This document shows positions 1-12,515 of a stretch of DNA of 12,515 nucleotides, piece after piece. Positions within the stretch are counted from its first letter, which is position 1. Each line of letters opens with the position of its first letter. The DNA lies in NCBI GenBank assembly GCA_019661845.1, contig JAIFWL010000003.1, positions 1 through 12,515 of the forward strand, in the 5' to 3' direction. This DNA is from Candidatus Parcubacteria bacterium. Lineage in GTDB: Bacteria > Patescibacteriota > Minisyncoccia > Phycocordibacterales > Zambryskibacteraceae. The notes under the pieces were generated by a model. The model saw nothing but the letters and a program-made list of their open reading frames with translations. It searched no databases and was not told where the DNA came from. A program made the position numbers and the translations under genes.

Positions 1-90
1 GAATATATTGAGATTACTCCTAAGTCCGTGCGCTTGCGCAAGGTGCTTCTAACTCAATCCGACCGCAACAAAGCTCAGAAGAAGGGATAG
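1..90 (+). CDS. typA: TypA/BipA GTPase, C-terminal end only
   Basis: The window opens inside a frame that reads 29 residues to a TAG at 88-90. The residues include ITPKSVRLRK, which matches the conserved C-terminal tail of the translational GTPase TypA/BipA (E. coli has VTPKSIRIRK followed by a basic end). TypA is a ribosome-associated GTPase of the EF-G family involved in ribosome assembly and stress adaptation. Only the last part of the C-terminal domain is visible; the GTPase domain lies before base 1. The gene converges on the cytidylate kinase gene. I see no clear + strand T-run terminator after it. Identification rests on a short but very typical motif. Confidence 0.8.
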   Translation, partial: EYIEITPKSVRLRKVLLTQSDRNKAQKKG

Positions 91-100
91 TATAGAAGTG

Positions 101-138
101 AAATAAAAAGAACCGCGCCCCTCCAGTGGAGAAACGCG
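101..138 (-). terminator. Rho-independent terminator of the cytidylate kinase gene
   Basis: Read on the - strand, CGCG (138-135) pairs with CGCG (117-114) and an inner CTCC/GGAG (131-128 with 124-121) closes an ACT loop. The hairpin is followed by GTTC and a T-rich run (complement of 101-109). It lies just downstream of the kinase stop at 162. The internal-loop A/C-rich mismatch makes the stem imperfect. Confidence 0.6.
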
Positions 139-161
139 ATTCGGAATTCGGCGACAAGTGC

Positions 162-800
162 TCACCTCGAGAGGGCGACCTTCGTGGATTCACTGATCTC
201 ATGGAGCATCCTTGCTAAGGCCTGCCTCTCAGTCAGCTTGCTGACGTCGATCTCGATAGCGTCAGGGTGCTTCTTGAGAGGGAAAACCTCGCGAGTAGTA
301 TCCTTCTCGTCACGAGCGAGGATATCACTCAGTACCCTCTCGTAGGAAATCTCCTCACGCCCCTCGCGCGCCTTGAGGAGCTGGAGGAAGCGCTGAGCTG
401 CACGCACCTCGGGAAAGGCCGTGAGGAAGAACTTGATGTCAGCCTCAGGATACTCCCATGCACCGGCACGGCCGTCGATGAGCGCTCCCCTTGAGAAGAA
501 GTGGAGACTCCTCAGTCGGGCATTGAGTGCCTCCCGCACCGAGCGGATCTCGCTCACCTTCGGCACCATGTTGCCGATCTCTTCCGTACGAAGGATGGGG
601 TACTGGAGATCTGTGACCTCGAGCGTGCGAGCAATCTCCTGCCACGTAGCCATCCCCGAGCACTTGCTGTGCTTGTATACCAACGCTCGGTACCAGAGCC
701 CGGAGTCGATCACGTCGAGCCCTAAGCGCTCGCCCAAGCTCTTGGTCAAGGTTCCCTTGCCCACACCGCTTGGACCGTCAATCACTATCAACTTCATCAT
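162..800 (-). CDS. cmk: cytidylate kinase (CMP/dCMP kinase)
   Basis: 212 residues, close to the usual Cmk length of about 220. The enzyme transfers phosphate from ATP to CMP or dCMP in the cytoplasm, feeding CTP/dCTP pools. A P-loop GPSGVGKGT lies at residues 9-17, followed by LDVIDSGLWYRAL, the Cmk version of the D-(T/S)-G-x-x-YR nucleotide-binding motif. Later come a VREALNARLR helix, DGRAGAWEYPEADIKFFLTA (family: DGRD-x-G-x-x-x-P-A-x-x-K-x-F-L-T-A; here the Asp after GR is Ala) and the lid-like RDEKDTTR. The last segment DAIEIDVSKL is also typical. Start is one of two adjacent ATGs (800 or 797), preceded by the purine-rich AGAGGAG. The GRA variation is the one oddity; a related P-loop nucleotide kinase is the alternative. 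Confidence 0.85.
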   Translation of the reverse strand: MMKLIVIDGPSGVGKGTLTKSLGERLGLDVIDSGLWYRALVYKHSKCSGMATWQEIARTLEVTDLQYPILRTEEIGNMVPKVSEIRSVREALNARLRSLHFFSRGALIDGRAGAWEYPEADIKFFLTAFPEVRAAQRFLQLLKAREGREEISYERVLSDILARDEKDTTREVFPLKKHPDAIEIDVSKLTERQALARMLHEISESTKVALSR

Positions 801-820
801 TGCGCTCTCCTCTCTCCCTA

Positions 821-850
821 TAGATAAACATGAAGAACACTTCCTGTCAA
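821..850 (-). promoter_or_regulatory. candidate sigma-70 promoter for the cytidylate kinase gene
   Basis: On the - strand a perfect -35 TTGACA (850-845) is followed after 18 bases by TATCTA (826-821), a weak -10. The start would fall near 814, about 14 nt before the ATG. The -35 is convincing and the -10 is not; TATAG slightly downstream is an alternative. Confidence 0.4.
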
Positions 851-861
851 AGAGTCTTTGA
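847..861. promoter_or_regulatory. palindrome in the divergent cmk/hisS promoter region
   Basis: TCAAAGA, one central G, then TCTTTGA: a perfect 7+7 inverted repeat. It overlaps the -35 of the kinase promoter on one strand and the -35 position of the hisS promoter on the other, where no good -35 hexamer is visible. An operator for a dimeric regulator is the natural reading, but a 15-bp palindrome alone is modest evidence. Confidence 0.35.
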
Positions 862-874
862 AATCAATTTTTAG

Positions 875-880
875 TATAAT
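875..880 (+). promoter_or_regulatory. -10 box of hisS; likely leaderless transcript
   Basis: A perfect TATAAT ends six bases before the hisS ATG at 887. The expected transcription start (6-8 bases after the -10) therefore coincides with the start codon, and no Shine-Dalgarno sequence fits in the gap. The -35 position (about 852-857) is poor. Confidence 0.65.
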
Positions 881-886
881 TGCAGG

Positions 887-1990
887 ATGTCTAAGCTTTC
901 AACCGACTCATACAAGGGCGTCCGCGACTTCTACCCTGAGGATCAATTCATTCAGAACTACATTAACGCCATTTGGAGGACGACCGTAGAGCGATTTGGT
1001 TATGAGGAATACGGTGCTTCCATCCTCGAACACACTGAGATTTATACCGAGAAGTCAGGTGAACAGATTGTGAACGAACAGACCTTCACCTTCACCGACC
1101 GAGGTGGTCGCTCAGTTACTCTGCGCCCTGAGATGACTCCAAGTGTCGCCAGGATGCTTGCCCACAAGAGGCGAGAACTCGGCTTCCCACTACGTTGGTA
1201 CTCAATCCCAAATTTATTCCGCTACGAAGCAACTCAGCGTGGAAGACTCCGCGAACACTGGCAATTGAATGCTGACCTATTCGGCTTAAGTGGTATTGAA
1301 GCAGAGGTGGAGGTCATCCAACTTGCTTACCAGATCATGCGCAACTTCGGTGCCAAGGATGAGGACCTCGAAATCCGTCTCAACTATCCTACCGGCACTG
1401 ATAGTGATTTAGAGAAGTTAATGGATAAGTTGCGTGAGATTGGCATCACTAATACCAAGATCGACAAGACCCTAGCTCGTGGCCAAGCTTACTACACTGG
1501 TGCAGTATTCGAATTCTTCGACACTAACCCTGAGAACAATCGTTCGATCCTCGGCGGTGGCCGTTATGATAACCTCACTTCCCTCTTCGGTGATTCTGAA
1601 CTTCCTGCTGTGGGGTTCGGCTGTGGAGATGTGACTACCCGTGACTTCTTGGAAACACACAAACTCTTACCTGAGTACCGACCTTCAACCATGATTGCTG
1701 TCTTGCCTACGGAAGAAAAGGTATTGGGCGAAGTATGGAAAGTGGCCATGTCCCTACGCATGAGCGGTTACAACGTCTCTGTTGACTGGTCTATGAAGAA
1801 GCTCGGCGACATGATCAAGAATGCCGACAAACTCCACATCCCATTCGTTATGGTGGTGGGTGAAGATGAGTTGAAGAGTAAGAAGTTCAAGGTAAAGAAT
1901 CTTAAGACCGGCGAGGAGAAGGAGGTTAACTTCGAAGAGAAGCCTCATGAGCATAAGCACAAGCACGAAGGCCACGATCATAATCACTAA
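887..1990 (+). CDS. hisS: histidyl-tRNA synthetase (short class II form)
   Basis: 367 residues; typical bacterial HisRS has about 420. It would charge tRNA-His in the cytoplasm. Visible parts: N-terminal GVRDFYPED; class II motif 2 FRYEATQRGRLREHW from about residue 111 (R112, E114); the histidine-specific loop ARGQAYYTG at 197-205; GGGRYD at 223-228; motif 3 GFGCGD at 243-248; and a C-terminal anticodon-binding-like domain from about 265. The family loop is RGLDYYTG, so Leu is Gln and Asp is Ala here. Only about 65 residues separate motif 2's end from this loop, so the usual insertion domain is largely missing. The tail (about 352-367) is a His/Lys/Glu-rich metal-binding-like stretch. Stop TAA and the next ATG overlap (TAATG), so the exonuclease is translationally coupled. 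A HisZ-like paralogue is possible, but the retained Arg and YYTG favour a synthetase. Confidence 0.8.
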   Translation: MSKLSTDSYKGVRDFYPEDQFIQNYINAIWRTTVERFGYEEYGASILEHTEIYTEKSGEQIVNEQTFTFTDRGGRSVTLRPEMTPSVARMLAHKRRELGFPLRWYSIPNLFRYEATQRGRLREHWQLNADLFGLSGIEAEVEVIQLAYQIMRNFGAKDEDLEIRLNYPTGTDSDLEKLMDKLREIGITNTKIDKTLARGQAYYTGAVFEFFDTNPENNRSILGGGRYDNLTSLFGDSELPAVGFGCGDVTTRDFLETHKLLPEYRPSTMIAVLPTEEKVLGEVWKVAMSLRMSGYNVSVDWSMKKLGDMIKNADKLHIPFVMVVGEDELKSKKFKVKNLKTGEEKEVNFEEKPHEHKHKHEGHDHNH

Positions 1991-2565
1991 TGAGGAAAAT
2001 AGTTTTCGATATTGAAACTAGTAATATCTTTACTGAGGTGGGTTCTGCTGACCCAGCTGCTCTTGATATTGCTGTAGTGGGCATTTATGATTCGGAAACA
2101 GATTCTTACTCTACCTTCCTTAAGGAAGACTTGCACAAACTCTGGCCCATCCTTGAACACAGTGACATGCTGATAGGCTTCTACTCTGAACACTTCGACC
2201 TACCTCTTCTTAACAAATATTATCCAGGAGATCTGTCTAAGATTAAGCAACTCGATATTCTTAAAGAAATTAGGAAGCAATACGGCCGCGGCATGTCACT
2301 AGATAAGCTGGCTGAAGGCACTCTGGGGAAGAAGAAGAGTGGCCACGGACTAGAAGCGACTAAGTGGTGGAAGCAGGGGGAATACGACAAGGTAAGGAAC
2401 TACTGCCTAGACGATGTGAGGATTACTAAGGAACTCTACGACCACGCCACTACTCATAATAAGCTTATCTTCAAGGAAGGAAATCAGTTGAAGGAGGTGA
2501 AGCTTGATACAAGTGAATGGGAAATGCCGGGGGAAAAGAAGCTTACTTTCAGTATGGGTTTCTAG
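1990..2565 (+). CDS. DEDDy-type 3'-5' exonuclease (RNase H-like fold, YprB/PolB-exo-like)
   Basis: 191 residues. Exo motif I is FDIETS (D7, E9), motif II is GFYSEHFDLPLL (D70), and motif III is YCLDD (Y138, D142), the YxxxD form of DEDD exonucleases. These residues bind the two metal ions that hydrolyse nucleic acid from the 3' end. Size and motifs match the stand-alone RNase_H_2/YprB-like proteins rather than DnaQ or a polymerase domain. The ATG shares a base with the hisS stop, so no separate ribosome entry site is needed. The residues after about 155 have no recognisable motif. Substrate (DNA or RNA) cannot be told from sequence; the nuclease two genes downstream suggests nucleic-acid repair or processing. 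Confidence 0.75.
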   Translation: MRKIVFDIETSNIFTEVGSADPAALDIAVVGIYDSETDSYSTFLKEDLHKLWPILEHSDMLIGFYSEHFDLPLLNKYYPGDLSKIKQLDILKEIRKQYGRGMSLDKLAEGTLGKKKSGHGLEATKWWKQGEYDKVRNYCLDDVRITKELYDHATTHNKLIFKEGNQLKEVKLDTSEWEMPGEKKLTFSMGF

Positions 2566-2567
2566 AA

Positions 2568-2576
2568 TGCTATAAT
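2568..2576 (+). promoter_or_regulatory. extended -10 promoter before the DsbA-like gene
   Basis: TGC directly followed by TATAAT (2571-2576) is an extended -10 element. The ATG at 2591 lies 14 bases further, giving a leader of about 7 nt without a Shine-Dalgarno. No good -35 is visible, as is common for extended -10 promoters. It may serve the oxidoreductase and DUF2779 genes independently of hisS. Confidence 0.55.
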
Positions 2577-2590
2577 GCGGGGACAAATAT

Positions 2591-3283
2591 ATGGAACCAA
2601 CACACGAACAAAACAAGTTACTCATCCCTATCGCCATAGTGCTCGCTGGAGGGCTCGTGGCCAGCGCTATCTACTTCGGTAGTGGCAAGCCTTATACTGG
2701 GAGTCTCACGGGAGGCACTCAGCAAGCAGCCCAGGATGCTCCAGGGGTAACTAGCGAAGACCATATTGTAGGAAGAGCTGATGCTTCCGTAGTTGTCGTA
2801 GAATATTCTGATACTGAATGCCCATTCTGCAAAACTTTCCACAACACTATGAGGCAACTTATGAGTGAATACAGTGGACAAGTTTCTTGGGTTTATCGCC
2901 ACTTCCCCATCTCTCAACTTCATAGCAAGGCCCCACACGAAGCTGAGGCCACAGAGTGTGCTGCCGAACTCGGAGGTAATACCGCCTTCTGGAAATATTT
3001 GAACCAAGTTTTCGATACTACTCAATCCAACGATTCACTGGATCCTATGGAGCTTCCGAAGATTGCTGGCTCTATTGGCTTAGATGTTACAGCCTTCAAC
3101 TCCTGTCTCTCTAGTGGTAAATATACGGATAAAATTTCTAAGAGTGTCGAGGAAGCTGTAAGGATTGGAGCTCGAGGCACACCATACTCAGTCATCATTA
3201 AGAAGAATGGTGATCAAGTGGTCATAAACGGTGCCGAGCCTTACGCTACAGTAAAGGCGAAGATCGACGCCGCACTCAAGTAA
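2591..3283 (+). CDS. membrane-anchored DsbA-like thiol-disulfide oxidoreductase
   Basis: 230 residues. A hydrophobic segment at about residues 10-29 with no clear cleavage site makes an N-terminal anchor, followed by a Gly/Ser/Thr/Gln-rich linker (31-52). The rest is a thioredoxin-fold DsbA domain (Thioredoxin_4 type) with the active site CPFC at 77-80 and the cis-proline loop GTP (T197, P198). Such proteins form or shuffle disulfides in exported proteins on the outer face of the membrane. Two further cysteines in the helical insert (about C118 and C168 regions) may form a structural disulfide. The gene follows an extended -10 box and its TAA is immediately followed by the GTG of the next gene, so the two are co-transcribed. 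Redox partner and substrates are not visible here. Confidence 0.85.
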   Translation: MEPTHEQNKLLIPIAIVLAGGLVASAIYFGSGKPYTGSLTGGTQQAAQDAPGVTSEDHIVGRADASVVVVEYSDTECPFCKTFHNTMRQLMSEYSGQVSWVYRHFPISQLHSKAPHEAEATECAAELGGNTAFWKYLNQVFDTTQSNDSLDPMELPKIAGSIGLDVTAFNSCLSSGKYTDKISKSVEEAVRIGARGTPYSVIIKKNGDQVVINGAEPYATVKAKIDAALK

Positions 3284-4681
3284 GTGCTTTCAAAAACTAA
3301 TTACATCCTCTGGCGTGATTGCCACAAGAACGCTTGGCTTAAGATTCATAAGCCAGACATTTACTATGCTCATGAACTCTCCGACTTCGAGAAACAGATT
3401 ATAGAAACAGGTAATGAAGTGGATCTCCTCGCCCGAGAACTCTTTCCCACTGGCGAATACCAGAAGAGGTTTGAGGTAGATGGATACCTTGCTATCACAG
3501 ATATCCTTGCCGGCAATAATTTGTATGAAGTTAAGGCAACCAATGCCATAGACAAGAAGACCCACCTACATGACCTCACGTTTCAGTACGTTGTACTCAA
3601 ACGTGCAGGGTTAGAAATAGATAGTGCCAACTTAATCCACTTAAATCCGGAGTATGTAAGGAAAGGTGAGATTGATCTCAACAAACTCTTCCAGATTGAA
3701 GATGTTACAGAAGTAGTGAAGGAAATGGCAGAAGAGGTGATGGCTGAGATGCAACTTGCCAAGGGTTATCTCGCGAGCGAGAAGGAGCCTGTAGGCCCCT
3801 GTGACTGCTTGCGCAAAGGACGCTCGGCTCACTGCACCACCTTCAGCTACTCAAACCCTGATATCCCAGAGTATGGAGTACATGATCTTACACGCATTGG
3901 TTTAAGTAAGAGGAAGCTTACTGAACTTGTAGACTCGCACATATTTAAACTAGAAGATATTCCAGAATCTACAGAGCTAAGTGACATCCAGAAGAATCAA
4001 ATCTGGACCTACTTGAATGATCGCGAGATCATTTCTAGGGAAGCTATTGCAGAGGAGTTTGAGAAGTTAGAATTCCCTCTCTACTTTCTAGATTATGAGA
4101 CTTTCCCTGCCGCAATACCACGCTTCGACCAATTCTCTCCTTACCAACAGATCCCCTTTCAATACTCGCTCCATATACTTGAAAATCCAGAATCACAAGC
4201 GCCAATTCACAAAGAGTTTCTTCATACTGGCAAAGATGACCCGAGCCGAGCCTTCGCCGAATCTTTGTATAACGACTTGGAAGGCAAGGGATCTGTCATC
4301 GTCTGGCACAAGAGCTTCGAATGTTCGAGGAACAAAGAGTTAGCAGAGAGGCTCCCTCAATTTAAAAACTTCTTTGATGAAGTGGAGAAACGCGTTTATG
4401 ATCTCGAAGACATATTTAAGAAGCAACATCATGTGCACAAAGACTTCTACGGCAGCACTTCCATCAAGTACGTCCTCCCTGTCCTTGCCCCAGATTTAAG
4501 TTATAAGAATCTTGAGATTAAAGAAGGTGGCACAGCAAGTCAGAAGTGGAATGAGATGGTTACTGGTGACATTACGCAGGAAGAAAAAGCCGTTATATCT
4601 AAGAACCTCAAGGATTACTGCAAGTTAGACACTTACGCCATGTATGCCATTTGGGGGGCTCTACAAAGCCTTATTAATTAA
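3284..4681 (+). CDS. DUF2779 protein: Cas4-like PD-(D/E)XK domain fused to DEDD exonuclease-like domain
   Basis: 465 residues from a GTG that abuts the preceding TAA. The N-terminal half looks like a Cas4/AddB-type nuclease: D73 and E82-V-K84 form the PD-(D/E)XK signature, Q101 fits the following helix, and C13 with C173, C175 and C184 could hold the iron-sulfur cluster typical of that family. The C-terminal half is the DUF2779 domain, an RNase H-like fold: FLDYETF (D270, E272), VIVWHKSFE in the middle, and YCKLD (Y445, D449) at the end match exo motifs I-III. So one chain carries two candidate nuclease sites. DUF2779 proteins are of unknown function; DNA end processing or defence is inference. 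The gene ends in an AT-rich terminator that overlaps the start of the accessory island. Confidence 0.75.
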   Translation: MLSKTNYILWRDCHKNAWLKIHKPDIYYAHELSDFEKQIIETGNEVDLLARELFPTGEYQKRFEVDGYLAITDILAGNNLYEVKATNAIDKKTHLHDLTFQYVVLKRAGLEIDSANLIHLNPEYVRKGEIDLNKLFQIEDVTEVVKEMAEEVMAEMQLAKGYLASEKEPVGPCDCLRKGRSAHCTTFSYSNPDIPEYGVHDLTRIGLSKRKLTELVDSHIFKLEDIPESTELSDIQKNQIWTYLNDREIISREAIAEEFEKLEFPLYFLDYETFPAAIPRFDQFSPYQQIPFQYSLHILENPESQAPIHKEFLHTGKDDPSRAFAESLYNDLEGKGSVIVWHKSFECSRNKELAERLPQFKNFFDEVEKRVYDLEDIFKKQHHVHKDFYGSTSIKYVLPVLAPDLSYKNLEIKEGGTASQKWNEMVTGDITQEEKAVISKNLKDYCKLDTYAMYAIWGALQSLIN

Positions 4682-4713
4682 TATTTGACTTAGACGTTCA
4701 AATATGTTTTTAT
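4681..4713 (+). terminator. AT-rich Rho-independent terminator after the DUF2779 gene
   Basis: ATATTTGA (4681-4688) pairs perfectly with TCAAATAT (4698-4705), with a 9-nt loop, then G and TTTTT. The stem begins within the stop codon. It is short and AT-only, so termination may be partial; the same bases overlap a candidate promoter for the RNA-unit transcript. Confidence 0.5.
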
Positions 4714-4716
4714 AGT
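4685..4716 (+). promoter_or_regulatory. candidate promoter of the RNA-unit/IS110-like transcript
   Basis: TTGACT (4685-4690) and TATAGT (4711-4716) are the same two hexamers as in the excellent promoter at 6803-6831, but here 20 bases apart instead of 17. A start about 7 bases after the -10 falls at about 4723, at the left foot of the first RNA unit (4721). The long spacer lowers confidence. Confidence 0.4.
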
Positions 4717-4720
4717 AGAG

Positions 4721-4767
4721 AGTGCGATGATGATCCCTGTCCAATAGGACGATTGAGAAATTGCACT
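4721..4767 (+). ncRNA. RNA unit 1
   Basis: Outer stem AGTGC/GCACT (4721-4725, 4763-4767). First loop strand GATGATGATCCCT is 13 nt, inner hairpin GTCC-AATA-GGAC (4739-4750), second loop strand GATTGAGAAATT (4751-4762). The extra base in the first strand is shared only with unit 9. No complementarity between the two strands is evident. Confidence 0.75.
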
Positions 4768-4768
4768 T

Positions 4769-4826
4769 ACACGGCAGACGATTGATAACCTGTCTATAAA
4801 GACGATGGGAGTTATGTCTGCCGTGT
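4769..4826 (+). ncRNA. RNA unit 2
   Basis: A perfect 11-bp outer stem ACACGGCAGAC/GTCTGCCGTGT (4769-4779, 4816-4826). Loop strands GATTGATAACCT (4780-4791) and GATGGGAGTTAT (4804-4815) flank GTCT-ATAA-AGAC (4792-4803). ATAAC in the first strand is complementary to GTTAT in the second, so the two could pair or could read opposite strands of one target. This is one of the clearest copies of the consensus. Confidence 0.85.
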
Positions 4827-4828
4827 CT

Positions 4829-4865
4829 GATCTTTAACATGTCCTTCGGGACGAAAGGAGGCCCT
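4829..4865 (+). promoter_or_regulatory. incomplete RNA unit containing the ribosome binding site
   Basis: GATCTTTAACAT (4829-4840) has the unit consensus (GAT, 12 nt, final T). It is followed by GTCC-TTCG-GGAC (4841-4852), a UUCG-capped inner hairpin, and GAAAGGAGGCCC (4853-4864). The second strand contains the Shine-Dalgarno AAAGGAGG (4854-4861), 5 nt before the GTG at 4867. No outer stem is present. If the protein binds the units, it could bind here and block its own translation. Confidence 0.6.
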
Positions 4866-4866
4866 A

Positions 4867-6075
4867 GTGGCCCGTATTATCGGTATCCAGCATCGCGTCA
4901 AGAAAACCTCTACCGGGGAATCTCGACCCACCATGGTTGCGATCTCCGATGGAGAGCACGTTCGTGAATTGGAACTCGAGGATGAACAAGCTGAGCTCGA
5001 CTTCGTGTTCGGCAAGTTCCCTGTCGGGTGGAGAGAGCCGATTGAGGGAGAAGATCTCTCAACTCTGCTGCCACACCATACCAAGAAGAGGAAGAAGGGT
5101 ATGGAGGAGGTGGTGCAGATCCCAGCGCAGTACGAAGGGCTCTGCGCAAACGATTCAGTCGTCATGATCCTTGGTGGATCCGGCGACAGACTCGCCTTCG
5201 CACTTTCCCGTCAAGGAGAGAAGGTTGGGGCAAAGATCTTCCGTATTCCTGGCTTCAAATTGGCTTCGCATCGACGTGAAGCTGACAAGAAGAAGGATCA
5301 CGTGGAACTTGCCCGAATCTTCGTGGAAAAACCTGAGCTCTACTACGAAGTGAGCCCTGCAGACCGGGATAAAATCCGTGTTGCTGAACTCCATCGTGCG
5401 CGTCGTGATACGCAGGTCGACAGAATCGCCTGCGAACAGCGCTTGCGCCAGCGACTCATCGGCACCATTTTCCTCTCGGAGGAAGGTGGCTACCCCGAGG
5501 GCACTGTCGCTGACGAGTTCGACAAGCTCAAGGCAAACGACACGATCCTTGCTACGCTCACCAAGGAGGAACGTCAGCGCGAAACCGAACTGCGTACCGC
5601 AATTCAGAAGGTGCCGATCTGGCAGGAGTTCTTTGCCCCCATGAAGGGCTGTGGAGAAGTCATTGCTGCCGGGCTCATCTCCACCATTGGCGACATCCGG
5701 ATGTTCGATTCGGCAGCCAAACTCAAGGCCTTCTGCGGTGTGCACGTCCTCACGGATGGGCGCTTCCCGCGGAAGCGCACTGGTTCCAGTGCGAACTGGA
5801 ACCCTCGGGCACGGCAAGCCTTGTACCTCCTCGGTCAGCAGTTCGTCTATCGGGCTGACTCAGAGTGGGGTAAGAAGCTCCGTGAGTACAAGGTGAAGTT
5901 CCGTACCAAGTATCCGGAGCCGGTCATCGGTGAGAATGGTAAGAAGCGCTACACCGATATGCACATCCACAAGATGGCGATCTGGCGTACGCTTACGAAG
6001 TTTGTCGAGCGTCTCCACAAGGAGTGGAAGCGACTCGATACGGGAGATGCGCAGAAGAAGACGGAAGCCGCGTAA
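4867..6075 (+). CDS. IS110/Tas-like protein with degenerate catalytic residues
   Basis: 402 residues from GTG with Shine-Dalgarno AAAGGAGG 5 nt upstream. The layout is that of IS110-family transposases. An N-terminal RuvC-like part starts RIIGIQHR; a charged, coiled-coil-like middle runs from about 155 to 255; and a Transposase_20/Nop-like C-terminal part starts GCGEVIAAGLISTIGDIRMF at 261 and continues KLKAFCGV, DGRFPRKRTGSSANWN and RQALYLLGQQF. IS110 enzymes use four acidic residues and a serine. By eye, the first Asp (GID) is Gln8, the Glu of the 'ME-TG' motif is Ile101 (VVMILGGSG), the KTD-x-x-DA motif is ADKKKDHVELA (D140, D144), and the Ser of 'SG' is Asp297 (TDG). So it may bind guide RNA and DNA without cutting or recombining. 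IS110 enzymes work with structured bridge RNAs, which fits the surrounding units. An alternative is a TasR-like protein with a shifted active site. Confidence 0.75.
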   Translation: MARIIGIQHRVKKTSTGESRPTMVAISDGEHVRELELEDEQAELDFVFGKFPVGWREPIEGEDLSTLLPHHTKKRKKGMEEVVQIPAQYEGLCANDSVVMILGGSGDRLAFALSRQGEKVGAKIFRIPGFKLASHRREADKKKDHVELARIFVEKPELYYEVSPADRDKIRVAELHRARRDTQVDRIACEQRLRQRLIGTIFLSEEGGYPEGTVADEFDKLKANDTILATLTKEERQRETELRTAIQKVPIWQEFFAPMKGCGEVIAAGLISTIGDIRMFDSAAKLKAFCGVHVLTDGRFPRKRTGSSANWNPRARQALYLLGQQFVYRADSEWGKKLREYKVKFRTKYPEPVIGENGKKRYTDMHIHKMAIWRTLTKFVERLHKEWKRLDTGDAQKKTEAA

Positions 6076-6095
6076 ATGTTCTTTGGAAGTTTAGG

Positions 6096-6156
6096 TTTTA
6101 AGTGAGACGACATGGCTCCTGTCTTACAGACGACCACAGGATTGTCTCATCTAAAA
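6096..6156 (+). ncRNA. RNA unit 3
   Basis: Outer stem TTTTAAGTGAGAC with GTCTCATCTAAAA (6096-6108, 6144-6156), about 12 pairs with one mismatch and one G-U. Loop strands GACATGGCTCCT (6109-6120) and GACCACAGGATT (6132-6143), both starting GAC, flank GTCT-TAC-AGAC (6121-6131). TCCT in strand one is complementary to AGGA in strand two. The unit starts 20 nt after the protein stop. Confidence 0.8.
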
Positions 6157-6160
6157 TTTT

Positions 6161-6210
6161 GGGGGACGATTAGTCATCTGAGCCACGGCTCGAAGGAGAT
6201 GATGTCCCCC
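6161..6210 (+). ncRNA. RNA unit 4
   Basis: Outer stem GGGGGAC/GTCCCCC (6161-6167, 6204-6210). Loop strands GATTAGTCATCT (6168-6179) and GAAGGAGATGAT (6192-6203) flank GAGC-CACG-GCTC (6180-6191). TCATCT is complementary to AGATGA, in the same register as the ATAAC/GTTAT pair of unit 2. The GAGC/GCTC inner stem replaces GTCY/RGAC with pairing kept. Confidence 0.85.
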
Positions 6211-6212
6211 GT

Positions 6213-6239
6213 CCGGTGGAACCTAAAAAATTCCACCGG
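6213..6239 (+). ncRNA. plain 9-bp hairpin, first element of composite module copy 1
   Basis: CCGGTGGAA (6213-6221) pairs perfectly with TTCCACCGG (6231-6239) around an A-rich 9-nt loop. It lacks the 12-nt strands of the units. It corresponds in position to the hairpin at 6477-6502 in the second module copy. It is not a terminator: C-rich sequence follows. Confidence 0.7.
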
Positions 6240-6281
6240 CCCTCTTTCAAGTACTTGATAAATTGAGTTTTTGAAAGAGGG
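6240..6281 (+). ncRNA. plain 11-bp hairpin whose 3' arm is shared with unit 5
   Basis: CCCTCTTTCAA (6240-6250) pairs perfectly with TTGAAAGAGGG (6271-6281). The last five bases GAGGG (6277-6281) are also the left foot of unit 5's outer stem, so this hairpin and the full unit 5 stem compete. The copy at 6503-6543 has the same arrangement. Confidence 0.7.
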
Positions 6282-6348
6282 TACGATACGTAGCCTGTTC
6301 CTGTGTGGTAGCAATACCCACCATGAACGACTCTACAGTTGTACCCTC
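6277..6348 (+). ncRNA. RNA unit 5
   Basis: Outer stem GAGGGTAC/GTACCCTC (6277-6284, 6341-6348). Loop strands GATACGTAGCCT (6285-6296) and GACTCTACAGTT (6329-6340) flank a longer inner hairpin, GTTC/GAAC (6297-6300, 6325-6328), extended by GTGG/CCAC around AGCAAT. GTAG and CTAC in the strands are complementary. Bases 6349-6369 between this unit and the next show no structure. Confidence 0.8.
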
Positions 6349-6369
6349 AACTCTTAGATCTTTGTAATT

Positions 6370-6424
6370 TTGGCAAGACGATCAAACAAGTGTCAAAAAG
6401 ACGATGTGAACAATGTCTTGCCAA
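6370..6424 (+). ncRNA. RNA unit 6
   Basis: Perfect 10-bp outer stem TTGGCAAGAC/GTCTTGCCAA (6370-6379, 6415-6424). Loop strands GATCAAACAAGT (6380-6391) and GATGTGAACAAT (6403-6414) flank GTC-AAAAA-GAC (6392-6402). The two strands are not complementary, arguing that the 12-nt segments are single-stranded rather than a third helix. The outer stem shares GGCAAGAC with unit 10. Confidence 0.85.
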
Positions 6425-6427
6425 TAC

Positions 6428-6475
6428 GGGGAACGCAAATGGTAGTGAGCTTCGGCTCGTAACGCGTGTGTTCTC
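6428..6475 (+). ncRNA. RNA unit 7 (divergent)
   Basis: Outer stem GGGAAC/GTTCTC (6429-6434, 6470-6475) with one G-U pair. Loop strands GCAAATGGTAGT (6435-6446) and GTAACGCGTGT (6459-6469, only 11 nt) flank GAGC-TTCG-GCTC (6447-6458). Neither strand begins GA, so this is the most diverged copy, but both end in T and geometry is kept. The UUCG tetraloop is an RNA hallmark. Confidence 0.65.
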
Positions 6476-6476
6476 T

Positions 6477-6502
6477 ACCGATGGGGCGCAAGCCTCATCG
6501 GT
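6477..6502 (+). ncRNA. plain 11-bp hairpin with GCAA tetraloop, composite module copy 2
   Basis: ACCGATGGGGC (6477-6487) pairs with GCCTCATCGGT (6492-6502), one G-U, capped by GCAA, a GNRA tetraloop that often makes tertiary contacts. It is the counterpart of the hairpin at 6213-6239. Confidence 0.75.
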
Positions 6503-6543
6503 CCTCTTTTAAGAATTTGAGTTTATCGAATTTTTAAAAGAGG
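6503..6543 (+). ncRNA. plain 10-bp hairpin whose 3' arm is shared with unit 8
   Basis: CCTCTTTTAA (6503-6512) pairs with TTAAAAGAGG (6534-6543); an AATT/AATT pair can extend it inside. AGAGG (6539-6543) also starts unit 8's outer stem. This is the counterpart of 6240-6281, with a T-for-C and matching A-for-G change that keeps pairing. Confidence 0.7.
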
Positions 6544-6614
6544 GCACGTTCCTCAGCGTGTCTCTAGGTAGGTTATCAAGGTTACCCTGAGACGATTAGC
6601 CCAATGTGCCCTCT
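6539..6614 (+). ncRNA. RNA unit 8
   Basis: Perfect 9-bp outer stem AGAGGGCAC/GTGCCCTCT (6539-6547, 6606-6614). Loop strands GTTCCTCAGCGT (6548-6559, begins GTT not GAT) and GATTAGCCCAAT (6594-6605) flank an extended inner hairpin GTCTC/GAGAC (6560-6564, 6589-6593) with an inner GGTA/TACC pairing. Counterpart of unit 5, which also has a long inner hairpin. Confidence 0.75.
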
Positions 6615-6633
6615 GCTATTTGCTATTCAAGAT

Positions 6634-6688
6634 TCACGAAGCGATGCTCGAAGGTGTCTCACAAGACGTGGAGCGAGTTGCCTCGTGA
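6634..6688 (+). ncRNA. RNA unit 9
   Basis: Outer stem TCACGAAGC/GCCTCGTGA (6634-6642, 6680-6688) with one A-C mismatch. First loop strand GATGCTCGAAGGT has 13 nt; second GTGGAGCGAGTT (6668-6679) starts GTG. They flank GTCT-CACA-AGAC (6656-6667). GCTC and GAGC in the strands are complementary. Confidence 0.7.
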
Positions 6689-6694
6689 TAAAAC

Positions 6695-6746
6695 GGCAAG
6701 ACGATGCATCGATTGTTCTTAGGAACGAGGAGGATACTGTCTTGCC
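6695..6746 (+). ncRNA. RNA unit 10
   Basis: Outer stem GGCAAGAC/GTCTTGCC (6695-6702, 6739-6746), identical to the core of unit 6. Loop strands GATGCATCGATT (6703-6714) and GAGGAGGATACT (6727-6738) flank GTTC-TTAG-GAAC (6715-6726). It is the last unit, 7 nt before the terminator hairpin. Confidence 0.8.
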
Positions 6747-6753
6747 ATTCCCA

Positions 6754-6789
6754 AACGCCGACTCTCGCGAGTCGGCGTTGTTTTTATTT
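6754..6789 (+). terminator. strong Rho-independent terminator closing the RNA-unit transcript
   Basis: AACGCCGACTC (6754-6764) pairs perfectly with GAGTCGGCGTT (6769-6779) around TCGC, followed by GTTTTTATTT. It is the only classical terminator between the protein gene and the next promoter, so the eight downstream units are probably the long 3' part of one transcript. Confidence 0.9.
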
Positions 6790-6802
6790 AAGGTTTTAAT
6801 AC

Positions 6803-6831
6803 TTGACTTTTACCTAATTTAGGTGTATAGT
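6803..6831 (+). promoter_or_regulatory. near-consensus sigma-70 promoter of the small membrane protein gene
   Basis: TTGACT (6803-6808), 17-base spacer, TATAGT (6826-6831). The start near 6838 would put the Shine-Dalgarno at the very 5' end of a roughly 10-nt leader. The spacer contains CCTAATTTAGG (6813-6823), an inverted repeat that could be an operator. Confidence 0.8.
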
Positions 6832-6847
6832 ATAAAAGGAGGTTGCG

Positions 6848-7117
6848 ATGGAACGAAGTTCCCGTTGGATGGCCGTGTCTGGCGCGACGGGATTCACTTT
6901 CTTCCTTGTCGCCAATTTCACTCACGTGTTCGCAGGGTCGAGCATCGTAGCTGCGATTCTGCAACTCGTCGTGAACGCTTTCGTGTTCACTGTTTGGAAG
7001 AAAGCTTTCCGAACGAGTTCTGGATTCAAGAAGTTTGTTGCCTTTTGGGGAGTGATTGTGCCAATCGTGATGGCCACCACAACCATCTGGCGAGTGCTTC
7101 TCCCGTTTCTATTCTAA
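6848..7117 (+). CDS. small three-helix membrane protein, unknown function
   Basis: 89 residues from ATG with a strong Shine-Dalgarno AAGGAGG (6836-6842) 5 nt upstream. Three hydrophobic stretches at about residues 8-29, 31-50 and 63-84 are separated by short basic turns (WKKAFR, KKF), so it should be an integral inner-membrane protein. I do not recognise a family and see no catalytic motif. It has its own near-consensus promoter and its own terminator, so it is a single-gene unit lying directly after the RNA-unit island. Whether it belongs to the island (cargo or effector) or is an unrelated neighbour cannot be settled from sequence. The intact promoter, ribosome binding site, helix pattern and terminator make it a real gene. 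Confidence 0.7.
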   Translation: MERSSRWMAVSGATGFTFFLVANFTHVFAGSSIVAAILQLVVNAFVFTVWKKAFRTSSGFKKFVAFWGVIVPIVMATTTIWRVLLPFLF

Positions 7118-7145
7118 AGGGCGACCCTTACGGGCCGCCCTTTTC
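7116..7145 (+). terminator. terminator of the small membrane protein gene, possibly bidirectional
   Basis: AAAGGGC (7116-7122) pairs with GCCCTTT (7137-7143), with an inner CCC-TTAC-GGG, followed by TTTTC. It begins in the stop codon. Read on the - strand it also lies just after rpoD, with only a short T-run (TTTAG), so it may partly end rpoD transcription. Confidence 0.75.
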
Positions 7146-7161
7146 TCATGTCTATTTATTT

Positions 7162-8352
7162 TTAGTATCCTCTCAACCTATCAATCTTGTCATGTTGTCT
7201 TATTTTTTCGTGAGCCTTGGCCTCAATCTGGCGGATGCGTTCGCGAGTGACGCCGAAGACCTTGCCCACTTCTTCGAGAGTGTGAGTGTAACCATCAATT
7301 AATCCATGGCGCATTTCTAGGATCTTCCTTTCCTTCGGTGGTAAATCACCTAGAATTTCTTTTACCTGGTCAGAGATGATGCGTCGAGAGGAGTCCTGGT
7401 CTGGTGAGAGGATCTTCTCATCGGCGAGGAAGTCACCGAGTTTACTCTTACCATCATCACTATCTTCACCCACTGGACTCTCGAGAGAGACGGTAGACTG
7501 GTCAATCTTCTCAATCTGATATACCTTGTCGACATCCAAGTTCATCTCCATAGCAATCTCTTCCTGCAGAGGTTCGCGACCCAAGTCTTGAGTGAGCCTT
7601 CTAACCACTTGCTTGTACTTCGCAATGGTCTCCACCATGTGTACTGGCACACGAATAGTTCTACTCTGGTCAGCTAGAGCGCGAGTAATAGCTTGGCGAA
7701 TCCACCAAGTAGCGTAGGTTGAGAACTTGAATCCCTTAGTCCAATCGAACTTCTCCACCGCTTTGTGTAGCCCCAGGTTACCTTCCTGAATGAGGTCTAG
7801 GAGAGTAAGGTCTGGGCTTCTATTGGCATACTTCTTAGCGATAGACACCACGAGGCGGAGGTTTGCCTTCATGAGTAGGTTCTTCGCATCTACATCACCC
7901 TTCTCAATCCTCTTGGCAAGCTCCTTCTCCATAGATCCGGCAATGAGTGGGTACTGGCCGATCTCTCGCAAATACATTTGGATCGAATCATATGAGGAGT
8001 CACTACGCGAGTAAGCGTATTTCTTACCGCTTTCTTCCTCAGGTACTTCTAAGAGCCCACCACCCTCGAGGATATCGATACCGAGTTTGTGTAACTTCTC
8101 ATACAAGTCATCTAACAAGATGATATTGGTCTCAATAGTTGGAAATTCTTTTAGAATCTCATCATAAGTTACGAACCCGCGCTCCTTGCCACGAGTAACA
8201 AGCCTATCCATCCTCAACACATCGTCTACCTTCTTCTTAGTATCTCTAACTTTATGAACTTTAGCCTTAGGCTTAGTCTTGTGGACTTTTTTAGGTGACT
8301 TTTTGGTCACTTGTTTCTTCTTAATATTCTTTTGTTTTTTACTTTTTTTCAT
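7162..8352 (-). CDS. rpoD: primary sigma factor RpoD (sigma-70)
   Basis: 396 residues. RpoD binds RNA polymerase core and recognises -35/-10 promoters. A Lys-rich N-terminus (1-41) is followed by a region 1.1-like domain (about 42-100), then region 1.2 ([16 protein letters not shown], 122-137), region 2 (163-232) with [19 protein letters not shown] and the -10-reading helix [21 protein letters not shown], region 3 (233-315) and region 4 (325-390) with the helix-turn-helix [20 protein letters not shown]. The big non-conserved region between 1.2 and 2 found in E. coli is absent, as in most small sigma factors. The start overlaps an upstream 9-codon frame and lies in one arm of an inverted repeat, with no Shine-Dalgarno at normal distance. 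It lies 88 nt after dnaG. The consensus-like promoters in this window fit its intact regions 2.4 and 4.2. Confidence 0.95.
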
Positions 8353-8368
8353 CCCGTACGAAATTCAT
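8339..8368 (-). CDS. possible 9-codon leader peptide overlapping the rpoD start
   Basis: ATG at 8368 opens MNFVRDEKK then TAA (8341-8339). GGAGG (8385-8381) lies 12 nt upstream of this ATG but 28 nt from the rpoD ATG, so ribosomes seem to be directed here. The rpoD ATG (8352) lies inside it in the +1 frame, and seven A residues follow. Translational coupling is the simplest reading. Confidence 0.4.
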
Positions 8369-8417
8369 GTTTTTAATGTACCTCCGTAAGAAATATTTTC
8401 TTTATTTCGTACGGGAT
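8351..8417 (-). promoter_or_regulatory. 14-bp perfect inverted repeat in the rpoD leader
   Basis: ATCCCGTACGAAAT at 8417-8404 and ATTTCGTACGGGAT at 8364-8351 (both read on the - strand) are exact complements separated by 39 nt. In the mRNA the 3' arm includes the first two bases of the rpoD ATG, while GGAGG sits in the loop. The fold would hide the rpoD start unless a ribosome opens it. Confidence 0.6.
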
Positions 8418-8440
8418 TCATCGAAAATCTGTTTTACATT

Positions 8441-10003
8441 CTACAACACCTTACGCCTCTCCTCATCCCTCTGCCGAGTGAGCTTGGAGAGCTCACGGAG
8501 CACACTCTCATCTCCCTCACCAATCTTTAGACGTAGGAGAGCAATTTCCTCGTCAAGCTCATCGATGCGGAGTCTGATAGAAAGTTCTTCCTTATGTCTC
8601 AAAAGATCTTTATCATCTGGATTCTCTTTCAATAATTCTGTCACCTCGTGATACTCATCCATTCTAGAACGCCTCTTTATACTTTCCTTATTTTCTAGCT
8701 CTTCAAGCTCTTGCCGAGGAGCACTAGGAGCCTTAACCTTCTTCAAATCTTCCCAAATGATCTCCTCCTTAATCCCCGTGCGCTTAGCAATGAGCGAGAT
8801 GAAGTGTGAACGCTCTATTGAGCTTGAGAGGAGTGCTACATAAGGCAATATCTTATACTCAATCAACTTACCCAACTTTCTAGGATCCGGCTCAGCCTTG
8901 AAAGCTTTGTTAAGGAAGTGCTCTATAGCAGGCTTCGACTGACGGAGTACTTCTTTCCACTTCTCGGGATCTCCCTTCGCAAGCTCAGCAGGATCCTTAC
9001 CACTTGGCAACTCAGCAATCTTTACCTCCAAGCCGAGCAAGAGTGCTAGTTCCGTCGACTTCTCCGCTGCCTTCTCCCCCGCCGTATCACCATCGAAAGC
9101 TAGAATGATACGGCGAGAGAGCTTCTTCAATCTCTCTAAGTGGTTCTGGGTGAAGGCTGTGCCGGAAGAAGCGACAGTATTATCTACTCCGACCTGGTGT
9201 GACAGTACCAAGTCCATCTGTCCTTCTACCAAGACAGCGTAATCCTTGCGACGAATCTTCTCCTTGGCCTTATCCAATCCATACAAGACCTCAAGTTTCT
9301 TAAAGACCATGGTGTCTGGACTGTTTAAGTACTTGGGTTCAGTATCTTTGGCCAAGGCTCTTCCGGAGAAGGCGATAATCCGTCCACTCGCATCCCTCAA
9401 GGGGAAGATCAGTCTGTCTCGGAAGACGTCATATGGTGACTTACCCGCATCCTCGGCCACCTTCTTCACCAGTCCTGCCTTGAGCAAGAGTTCCTCAGGC
9501 GCGCCCTCTAGGCGCAAGTGCGCGTAGAGGGCGCGCCACTCAGCTGGAGCATAGCCAATGTTCCAATTCTTGATTGATTCATCACTCAAGCCACGAGAGT
9601 GTAAGTACTCTCGAGCTGCCGTATTGGCATTTAAACTTTTTTCAAAGAACAGGCTTGCATCTTCGAGCACTTCAAGGATTCGATCCTTCTCGGTACGCTC
9701 TTCACGTGTATCACTTCCACGGCGAGAGAGTTCTACTCCAGCCTTATCCGCTAAGAGCTTCAGCGCTTCGCGGAAGTCTATCCCCTCCATCTCTTCTACG
9801 AAGGTGAAGATGTCTCCCTTCATCCCGCAACCGAAGCAGTAGAAACTCTGACGCAAGGGTGAGACGAAGAATGAAGGAGTTTTTTCCCGATGGAAGGGGC
9901 ATGGAGCCTTCAAACTCTGGCCCGCTTTTTGGAGTTTGACGTAGCCTCCTACTACTTCGGCTATATCTAGCCGTTCTTTGATTGTTTCGACATCGCCTCC
10001 CAT
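8441..10003 (-). CDS. dnaG: DNA primase DnaG
   Basis: 520 residues; DnaG usually has 580-600. It makes RNA primers for DNA replication. The N-terminal CHC2 zinc finger uses C35, H38, C56 and C59. The RNA-polymerase domain follows, with a TOPRIM core showing VLVEGQMD (E260) and [11 protein letters not shown] (D304, D306), the metal-binding acidic residues. The C-terminal part from about 420 is a shortened, charged helical region ([12 protein letters not shown] onward) where the DnaB-binding domain normally sits. The start [14 protein letters not shown] matches the family start; it overlaps the 3' end of rpoC by 37 nt, so the two are coupled. rpoD follows after 88 nt, similar to the classical dnaG-rpoD pairing of the macromolecular synthesis operon. 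Confidence 0.95.
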
Positions 10004-12515
10004 ATTAATTTTTCTTTGTAGCCGCCCTTGAAGCTGGTACCGGCTGGGATTAGACGACCGATAATAACGTTCTCCTTAAGACCAATGAGGTTGTCCTCAA
10101 CTCCCTTGATCGCTGCTTGGATAAGCACGCGAGGAGTGTGTTGGAAGGAAGCTGCGGAGAGGAAGCTTGCTCGTGAGAGCGAGACCTCAGTAATACCCAT
10201 GATGACTGAATCTGCCTTAGCCTCTGTAAGGCCCTTCTCTCTCAACATGTTGTTGACCTTGGTTAATTCAGAAAGTTCGACAACGTCACCGCGGGTAAAC
10301 TGTGTATCACCTGCTTCCTTAATCTTCCTTCTACTAAACATCTGGCGCACAATGAGTTCAATGTGCTTGTGAGATACTGCTGCACCTTGAAGTTCATAGA
10401 GTTTAGAAACTTCGTGAATAATATAATTCTCTGTCTTATCGCGACCAGCATAGCGGAAGAGTTCGTCGAGATCCGCTGAACCGTCGGTCAAGAGTTCCCC
10501 CTTGGAAACCTTCTGACCTACGCGGACCAAGATGCTTCTAAGGGCGCTCACAGTGTACTCGTTGTCGAGCTTCTTACCCTTCACCTCTCCCGCTTCTGGA
10601 GTAACCACGATCAAGCGATCGTGGCCCACAGACTTGATCTCGGTCACAATACCGTCTAAGTGACTAATGATAGCTGGGTTCTTAGGCTTCCTCTTCTCGA
10701 AGATTTCTTCAACACGAGGAAGACCTGCGGTGATGTCTCCACCAGCAGAGGCCACACCTCCGGCGTGGAAGGTACGCATAGTAAGCTGCGTACCTGGTTC
10801 GCCAATAGCTTGTGCAGCCACTGTTCCCACTGCTTCGCCGAGTTCAATCACTTTATTATTACCAAGATCAGTACCGTAACACTTCACACATACACCGTGG
10901 ATTGACTTACAAGCTAGAGGTGAGCGTACGAGTGTCTCTGTAGCATCAGACCTGTCGATAGTCTCAGCATCTGACTTGGTGATCAAGTGACCACGCTTGA
11001 AGAGGATATTGCCAGCGCTGTCAGTAAGATCAGCTGCGAGGAAGCGACCTCGAATGTTCTTAGAGAGAGGCATTTCTATACCGGAGGCAGTCTTCTTATG
11101 GATTATAGTGCCTTCCTTGGTACCGCAGTCATCTTCAGTAACAATCTCATCTTGAGCCACATCGAAGAGGCGGCGTGTGAGGTATCCTGCCTTAGCTGTG
11201 TTAAGCGCAGTGTCTGTCAAACCCTTTCTTGAGCCGTGAGTGGTGATGAAGTATTCAAGTGGAGTAAGGCCTTCTTTGTAGTTAGAGATGATTGGGAATT
11301 CAAGAGCCTCACCAGAAACGTTCTGGATGATACCCTTCATACCCGCCATCTGGTTTAAGTTACCGAAGGAACCTCGAGCTTCAGAATAAGTCATGTCGTA
11401 GACGGAATCCTTGTTACCTAGAGTAGCGGGGATAAGCTTCTCCACTTCGGACTTAACTCCTTGCCAGATCTCAACCGAGCGAGCGATGCGCTCACTCTCA
11501 GAGAGGAGGCCTTCTTGATACTGGTTCACCACTTCATTTACCTGTGAGCGACCCTTCTCGATAATCTCCTTCTTACCGGCAGGAATCTTCACATCACTCA
11601 AACCCCAAGTAACACCGGAGTAAGTAGCATACTTGAAGCCGAAGGACTTAATCTTGTCCATGATGGCAGGAGTGTTCTCAATGCCATACTTCTCAATCAA
11701 GTTATCTACTAGTTCAGCAATCCTCTTTCTACCCATTTCATGATTCTGGAATGGATAATCTTGTGGTAAAACACCGTTGAAGAGGAGACGTCCTACAGAA
11801 GTTTCGAACGGCTTACCTTCGAATGCCTTGTAACGATCACTCTCACTTGGGAGGACATGAATCTTGGCTCTAAGGTCTACCACTCCGAAGTCGAAAGCAG
11901 TGATGGCTGAGTTTGGACTCGCGTAAATACGGCCTTCACCCTTCTCCCCAGGAATAACACGAGTCATCCAGTAAGTACCGAGCACAATGTCGAGGAGTTT
12001 AGCGGACAAGACTGGTTCACCGTTACCTGGCTTCAAGATGTTCTTGTCTGCAGCCATAACGAGACGAGCCTCAGCTTGAGCCTCTTCAGAGAGAGGAACG
12101 TGAACGGCCATCTGGTCTCCGTCGAAGTCGGCGTTGAATGCAGTACATACAAGTGGGTGAAGCTGGATAGCATTACCCTCAATAAGAATTGGCTGGAAAG
12201 CTTGAATACCCAAGCGGTGCAGAGTTGGTGCGCGGTTCAAGAGTACGTACTTACCACGAATCACTTCTTCAAGAATGGCCCACACTTCAGGAATAGCATC
12301 CTCGATCAAGCGACGAGCACCTGGAATGTTGTAAGCAAGTTCCCTCTTCAAGAGTTCAGAAATGATAAATGGCTTGAAGAGTTCAAGTGCCATGTGCTTA
12401 GGCAGACCACACTGGTGGAGCTTGAGATCAGGACCCACGACGATCACTGAGCGACCAGAGTAGTCGACACGCTTACCAAGGAGGTTCTGGCGGAAGAGAC
12501 CGCGCTTGCCCTTCA
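9967..12515 (-). CDS. rpoC: RNA polymerase beta' subunit RpoC, C-terminal two thirds (runs off window)
   Basis: The open frame runs from the window end to a stop at 9967, about 849 residues; the N-terminus lies beyond base 12515. From the edge it reads [20 protein letters not shown], the conserved beta' segment near the lid. [12 protein letters not shown] (about 12104-12138) holds the three Asp that bind the catalytic Mg. [11 protein letters not shown] and the bridge-helix/trigger-loop stretch [17 protein letters not shown] follow, then the second zinc site formed by a Cys in DDCGTK plus [34 protein letters not shown] is also canonical. The ATG at 12447 is not the true start. The gene ends inside dnaG (37-nt overlap). 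Beta' forms the catalytic core with beta; the beta gene is presumably upstream on this strand, outside the window. Confidence 0.97.

Follow-up and report, generated by a model that had tools for sequence, protein, structure and literature searches.

In a 12,515-nucleotide (nt) stretch of a Candidatus Parcubacteria bacterium (contig JAIFWL010000003.1 of assembly GCA_019661845.1, positions 1 to 12,515; hereafter the window), ten stem-loop units surround a gene, tas, that encodes a 402-residue Tas protein. We consider it likely that units and gene together form a stem-loop array of the TIGR-Tas type, from the published branch of TasR proteins with an inactive RuvC domain in the candidate phyla radiation (CPR; Patescibacteria), and that about ten guide RNAs made from it would steer pairs of Tas proteins to 18-bp DNA sites without cutting them. 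The assignment is carried by the ten units and the letters at their junctions, by the RuvC and Nop fold of the predicted protein model, by the missing catalytic aspartate (Asp) and by the linkage between units and gene; the mechanism, RNA-guided binding of DNA without cutting, we infer from the absence of this Asp and by analogy with TasR. A 441-kb metagenome-assembled genome (MAG), 73% complete, contains the window as one of its contigs.

Stem-loop units and their linkage to tas

All ten units lie on the + strand, two upstream and eight downstream of tas (Table 1), and in each the outer stem, which closes with C-G, is joined by one strand to an inner hairpin with G at its start and C at its end, from which a second strand leads to the other outer arm. 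A preliminary description of this DNA, made from its letters, had listed ten units of this geometry, and all of them parse, with C-G closure of the outer stem and G-C closure of the inner hairpin in 10/10. Its count of 17 of 20 strands of exactly 12 nt was confirmed, the off-length strands being the first of units 4721 and 6634 (13 nt each) and the second of unit 6428 (11 nt). As that description also had it, most strands begin with GA (16/20, with G in 20/20), all end in T (20/20) and the middle is free, positions 3-11 being near background in 122 units from related loci. Its fixed GAY had to be given up: the third letter is T in 12 window strands, C in three, A in three and G in two, and is near background across the 122 units (0.04 bits). 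The constant marks are a G-A start and a T end, which leave the 9 nt per strand that had been counted on the basis of GAY. We saw no constant edge or loop repeats of 8-12 nt, and the stems and inner loops of the window vary from unit to unit.

A strict scan of the whole window (strands of 12/12 nt, an outer stem of at least 5 pairs, an inner stem of at least 3 and at least three of the four end marks) recovered 7 of the 10 units on the + strand and none on the - strand, whereas 200 dinucleotide shuffles of 4681-6800 gave a mean of 0.015 units and a maximum of 1, which bears out the earlier judgement that the pattern is hard to get by chance. When the GA start was not required, 26 Tas loci (270,389 bases) contained 134 units on the tas strand, at least one of them a false positive (at window 225), versus 5 on the other strand, and 23/26 loci held at least one unit. 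Comparison of equal strand lengths from 8 to 16 assigned 103 units to 12/12 and 3 to all other lengths combined. The commonest letters at both strands of the 122 units, a set that leaves out L020, L054 and L085 and whose scan demanded the closing C, the G and the final T, are A-C/G-A-N9-U/G-U (slashes at the junctions). With the T requirement dropped, T ends both strands in 105/115 units.

A covariance model, R1, was made from 14 units of the window and four relatives. Such a model had been proposed as a check by the preliminary description, and on whole genomes at E 0.001 it matched 10/10 genomes with Tas and 0/15 without; 48 of the 50 matches fell on the tas contig, and the remaining two sit on G009:C7, at its end, and look like a continuation of the array that reaches the end of G009:C5. 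In the window R1 finds 8/10 units, three of them training units. At E 0.1, 157/158 matches in 25 further loci and the window were on the tas strand; the sole opposite-strand match in this 26-locus search is a strong unit-like one (35.7 bits) at L060:3700-3746 (-), upstream of tas. At E 0.01, all 115 matches in 19 further named loci were on the tas strand, with matches in 16 of these loci. The 14 R1 units have 40 cells changed on both sides versus 10.4 in shuffles, and 32 other units have 108 versus 27.6, with a score of 0.951 versus 0.246 when shuffled and at most 0.178 when slid; these counts only show that the stems stay paired through many different letters.

Four loci with Tas-like proteins that lack the protein motif contained zero units on either strand and zero R1 matches. 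The first scans were also unit-free in L022, L060 and L092 and in L144, L153 (the contig of L022) and L159; R1 recovered matches in L022 (weak), L060 and L092, and none at E 0.01 in L144, L153 or L159. Rfam gave no match at gathering score. A box C variant, with T for the first G, occurs on every strand in L020 (G048) and on all but one in L085 (G784), and this change at both strands of a unit fits both junctions meeting the same protein site. Several units in L054 (G100, about 3264-6690) have one constant outer arm, TTGGCAGATCGAC, which gives this locus the look of an intermediate between dual-repeat and stem arrays.

Two linkers of the window array, 6211-6276 and 6476-6540, follow a common plan of a GC-rich hairpin, CCTCTTT and a palindrome whose last arm is AAAGAGG. 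The outer stem of the unit that follows (5 and 8, respectively) overlaps this arm, which would put linker hairpin and unit stem in competition. The first hairpin of the second linker (6477-6502) is terminator-like. Directly after the array terminator stands a promoter-like TTGACT-17-TATAGT (6803-6831), followed by an 89-residue open reading frame (ORF) of no clear family (6848-7117).

Table 1. Features of the window array and its tas gene.
Feature	Position	Strand	Remarks
Unit 1	4721..4767	+	strands 13 and 12 nt; R1 match 4720-4768, E 0.012
Unit 2	4769..4826	+	strict scan; R1 match, R1 training unit
tas gene	4867..6075	+	402 residues, GTG start; N-terminal RuvC-fold domain, then Nop domain with coiled coil
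Unit 3	6096..6156	+	strict scan; R1 match, E 0.0012
Unit 4	6161..6210	+	strict scan; R1 match, R1 training unit
Unit 5	6277..6348	+	long inner hairpin; strict scan; R1 match, E 7.6e-5
Unit 6	6370..6424	+	strict scan; R1 match, E 5.4e-5
Unit 7	6428..6475	+	least regular; strands 12 and 11 nt, starting GC and GT; missed by R1 at E 0.1
Unit 8	6539..6614	+	long inner hairpin; strict scan; R1 match, E 0.0013
Unit 9	6634..6688	+	strands 13 and 12 nt; missed by R1 at E 0.1
Unit 10	6695..6746	+	strict scan; R1 match, R1 training unit
Terminator-like hairpin with T tail, array end	6754..6787	+	terminator-like sites: 3 found versus 1.9 expected

The Tas protein, its proposed role and alternative readings

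The RuvC-fold domain of the window protein covers approximately residues 1-162. The family model TIGR_Tas_endo (NF052498) matches at 164.3 bits (cut-off 100), and the best structural match of the predicted model is TasR (PDB 9mty), ahead of TasH and IS621. Cutting by TasR requires Asp11, according to Faure et al. 2025 (PMC12045711). As residue 6 of 9mty aligns with residue 3 of our model, Asp11 would fall on residue 8 if the strand is free of gaps. Position 8 is R, Q, H or V, and never Asp, in 24/24 relatives with a readable N-terminus (26 relatives in all); Asp is likewise lacking there in 19/19 aligned relatives. We therefore regard it as likely, from the alignment, that the window Tas has lost its cutting residue. 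PADLOC has no family for Tas, and the window protein is without the long insertion found after residue 280 in L021, L058, L059 and L060.

These features place the locus beside a known group. Faure et al. (PMC12045711) report stem-loop arrays in two Tas clades, and a TasR clade from CPR bacteria that combines an inactive RuvC with stem arrays. The window resembles this CPR clade in its Nop protein with a presumably inactive RuvC, its CPR host, its tandem stem-loops in which boxes C and D bound two 8-12 nt spacers, and its variable stems and loops. By sequence, then, the locus appears to have the features of the stem branch: a Nop-domain Tas, tandem two-spacer stem-loops with box C- and box D-like letters, and no Asp in the 24 relatives. 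The dual-repeat TIGR arrays (TasR, TasH, TasA) likewise combine 9-nt spacers, boxes C and D at both junctions and a Tas protein, but the window lacks their constant edge and loop repeats and the RuvC Asp, and its boxes read C/GA and U/G versus CCA and UG in TasR. We conclude that the locus adds a solid member to a branch that has been published but scarcely studied. The preliminary description had envisaged a multi-guide system with an IS110-related protein, perhaps a new TIGR-like or bridge-like class: the multi-guide, TIGR-like part is upheld by family, predicted fold, junction letters and unit-Tas linkage, the bridge-like part reduces to shared ancestry since the units have a single loop, and the published branch already fits in place of a new class.

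We propose that a + strand transcript would be trimmed between units into single stem-loops and that a Tas dimer would grip each stem-loop with its two halves at the two C/GA...U/G junctions. Of the two spacers, A would base-pair with one strand of the DNA and B with the opposite strand right beside that site; the ground for this arrangement is the 8-nt 3' overhangs that TasR is reported to leave. With no catalytic Asp to cleave the DNA, the complex would instead bind it, bend it and block its use. Foreign or shifting targets (e.g. competing mobile elements) are favoured, as no match to the organism's own DNA appeared in the part sampled; this is the least certain step of the proposal.

Several observations weigh against this proposal. 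Targets of the form spacer A plus the reverse complement of B showed no excess, at gaps of 0-2, in the window and 31 other contigs of its MAG (151,887 of 441,288 bases): the ten units gave one site at 3 mismatches and 35 at 4, versus 2 and 39 for an order-swapped control and 5 and 33, 1 and 45 (plus 1 at two mismatches), and 0 and 38 for mispaired controls, which thus equalled or bettered the true units. When 291 units were compared with CPR loci at gap 0, no site had 0-1 mismatches and 12 had 2, versus 8 and 9 in the controls. R1 misses units 7 and 9 of the window, weak single units that could be decayed, and the covariation counts illustrate rather than prove the stems because the units were chosen by a scan or model that demands pairing. 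The same target form was in no excess within the window, and its BLAST search of the own genome was empty, a result that is uninformative since 18-mers may not seed.

A further point against the non-cutting proposal supports an unlikely alternative, that the same array serves a Tas that is still a nuclease, with conserved Arg, Lys and acidic residues of the RuvC fold forming an altered active site that cuts guided DNA. R3, R10, K12, E18, E43, D96 and D144 are invariant in 19 relatives, which is beyond the need of a mere scaffold, and the acidic E18, E43, D96 and D144 make an altered active site possible; the replacement of the first catalytic Asp in 24/24 relatives argues against it, as active TasR needs this residue.

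We also give a low probability to the reading that the units guide Tas to RNA rather than DNA, as an intermediate towards box C/D small ribonucleoproteins (sRNPs; Nop5, fibrillarin, L7Ae). These share with the window a Nop fold, an inactive N-terminal domain and two guides between boxes. Their box C and box D are RUGAUGA and CUGA, unlike the letters found here. Complementarity to ribosomal RNA (rRNA) of the same genome, the only RNA compared, was at control level: runs of at least 9 nt occurred for 11/198 spacers in 12 related genomes, some represented by 16S and the start of the next gene only and the window's own MAG being without rRNA, versus 10.4 in shuffles and 13 in a same-sense control. 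Fibrillarin (PF01269) was above cut-off in 0/22 genomes, the 73% complete MAG of the window among them, with one match below cut-off (G555) and positive archaeal controls.

It is very improbable that the locus is a transposon of the IS110 type with bridge RNAs formed by its non-coding flanks. The protein does match Pfam Transposase_20, and IS621 and ISCro4 are the next structural matches after the Tas proteins, but the IS110 family models stay below cut-off (51 of 140 bits and 14.5 of 180), and the DEDD/RuvC catalytic residues of the IS110 type are incomplete, Asp being gone. Unlike IS110/IS621 with its bridge RNA, the window has ten one-loop units instead of one two-loop RNA and no transposon-like copy number, with one tas copy in its own MAG. 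Chance hairpins, or terminator-like linker hairpins misread as units, deserve next to no weight: such hairpins do occur in some linkers, but the shuffles (0.015 versus 7), the strand bias (134:5 and 115:0), the strand lengths (103 versus 3) and the lack of R1 matches in 15 genomes without Tas exclude a chance origin of the unit set.

Spacer turnover among copied units

We took 291 units from 45 loci (44 distinct) and scored 1291 within-locus pairs over 60 flanking letters and the two 9-nt spacers. Eight pairs from six loci have flanks with at least 50/60 letters equal; their flank identity is 89% and their spacer identity 35%, compared with a spacer identity of 26% in pairs with flanks below 26/60, and binomial chances for such pairs are rough since pairs share loci. 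The clearest pair, L021 5256/7723, has flanks equal at 59/60 and spacers equal at 2 and 2 of 9. In L053 5600/5975 (3 and 8 of 9) and L055 3701/5600 (2 and 7 of 9), both among the eight, one spacer is conserved and the other altered; L021 5313/7779, with weaker flanks, has an identical spacer A and 0/9 in B. Contrary to the trend, L021 5079/7837 kept both spacers (9 and 8 of 9) with flanks at 43/60, and near-complete copies exist too (L058 6660/7844, both spacers equal, absent from later sets because the units failed stricter letters). The inner hairpins of copied units also differ, with pairing retained. Between loci, two 9-mer spacers are in common versus 0.65 expected.

Within the window, units 5 and 8 (flanks 39/60) and units 6 and 10 (common GGCAAGAC and GTCTTGCC arms) look like old copies that carry other spacers. 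At L055:3565-6001 a three-unit cassette with arms AGGGTxC, CGTGGCGGAC and TGGTGAGAC occurs three times in constant order, once upstream and twice downstream of tas, with different spacers each time.

Drift at the rate of the flanks does not explain this pattern, which could reflect exchange, capture from outside or strong selection. Taken from sequence comparison, it is a sign that in stem arrays the spacers change much more rapidly than the stems. Dual-repeat arrays regularly combine equal repeats with different spacers; here the same pattern is found despite stems that differ along the array. Spacer turnover in stem arrays was not met in the literature searched and may still be published.

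Genomic setting and significance

Tas relatives were found in 8/99 near-relative genomes (G000 counted) and in 14/383 genomes across the class (G000 and three weak matches counted), and the family model matched 24/379 genomes across the phylum, 11 above cut-off. Wider stretches were taken from 13 of these 24, the weak rest, mostly IS110-like, being left out, and the class survey added nine. Of the 30 loci from named genomes, 26 carry names that we take to denote CPR. No conserved partner gene was seen: apart from tas, the most frequent families occur in 4 loci, an ORF antisense to tas being one such family, in a count in which tas itself appears in 27/33 loci, the others having been dropped by the ORF filter. 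Putative pfkB and fba genes lie near tas in L016, L017 and L132. Viral contigs gave 13 and 51 matched stretches in two scans, with no Tas relative encoded in any of them; phage copies may still exist.

Genes for hisS, an exonuclease, a DsbA-like protein, a DUF2779-like protein and rpoD occur together in 11/12 stretches from the genus, the twelfth being cut by a contig end, and tas is absent there in 12/12. Four stretches (G005, G010, G012, G014) have a close DUF2779 protein (62-73%) in the same orientation, with roughly 145 bp to 1.1 kb between its gene and rpoD versus 2.5 kb here; in the other eight it is distant (37-41%) and reversed. As the DUF2779 gene, close or distant, stands beside rpoD in 12/12, it is probably not tied to the array; its product in the window (3284-4681) has a weak Cas4-like match (PADLOC E 0.023). 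The interval between DUF2779 and rpoD (4682-7161) is a variable spot in the genus, which elsewhere holds other small genes or almost nothing. One other carrier, G009, is found among 17 genus genomes, with tas on another contig. The absence of tas from this interval in relatives and its presence elsewhere in G009 suggest that the module comes and goes; no mobility gene was seen beside it.

In the consulted sections of Faure et al. (PMC12045711), the CPR branch of TasR with inactive RuvC takes up a few sentences, without function, targets or spacer history, and how TIGR arrays gain and change guides is left open. The word stem-loop is absent from the consulted part of a review (PMC12385481), and no other paper in the literature searched was recognised as treating stem arrays. 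The window locus and 43 other distinct loci now give this branch a usable definition in the form of a junction consensus, a covariance model and a protein motif, and the sign of fast spacer turnover bears on how TIGR arrays gain and change guides. A bolder and doubtful extension, which we offer tentatively, is that CPR bacteria possess an RNA-guided DNA silencer of natural origin that does not cut and can be re-programmed: 9-nt guide halves would be swapped singly, one after another, inside kept stems with no adjacent adaptation gene, and an Arg-bearing dead RuvC (IGIRHR..K.T..GEARPT) would have been retained for some new function, for instance to grip DNA or RNA. If the non-cutting reading is borne out, some of the smallest bacteria would have a natural counterpart of dead-Cas silencing.

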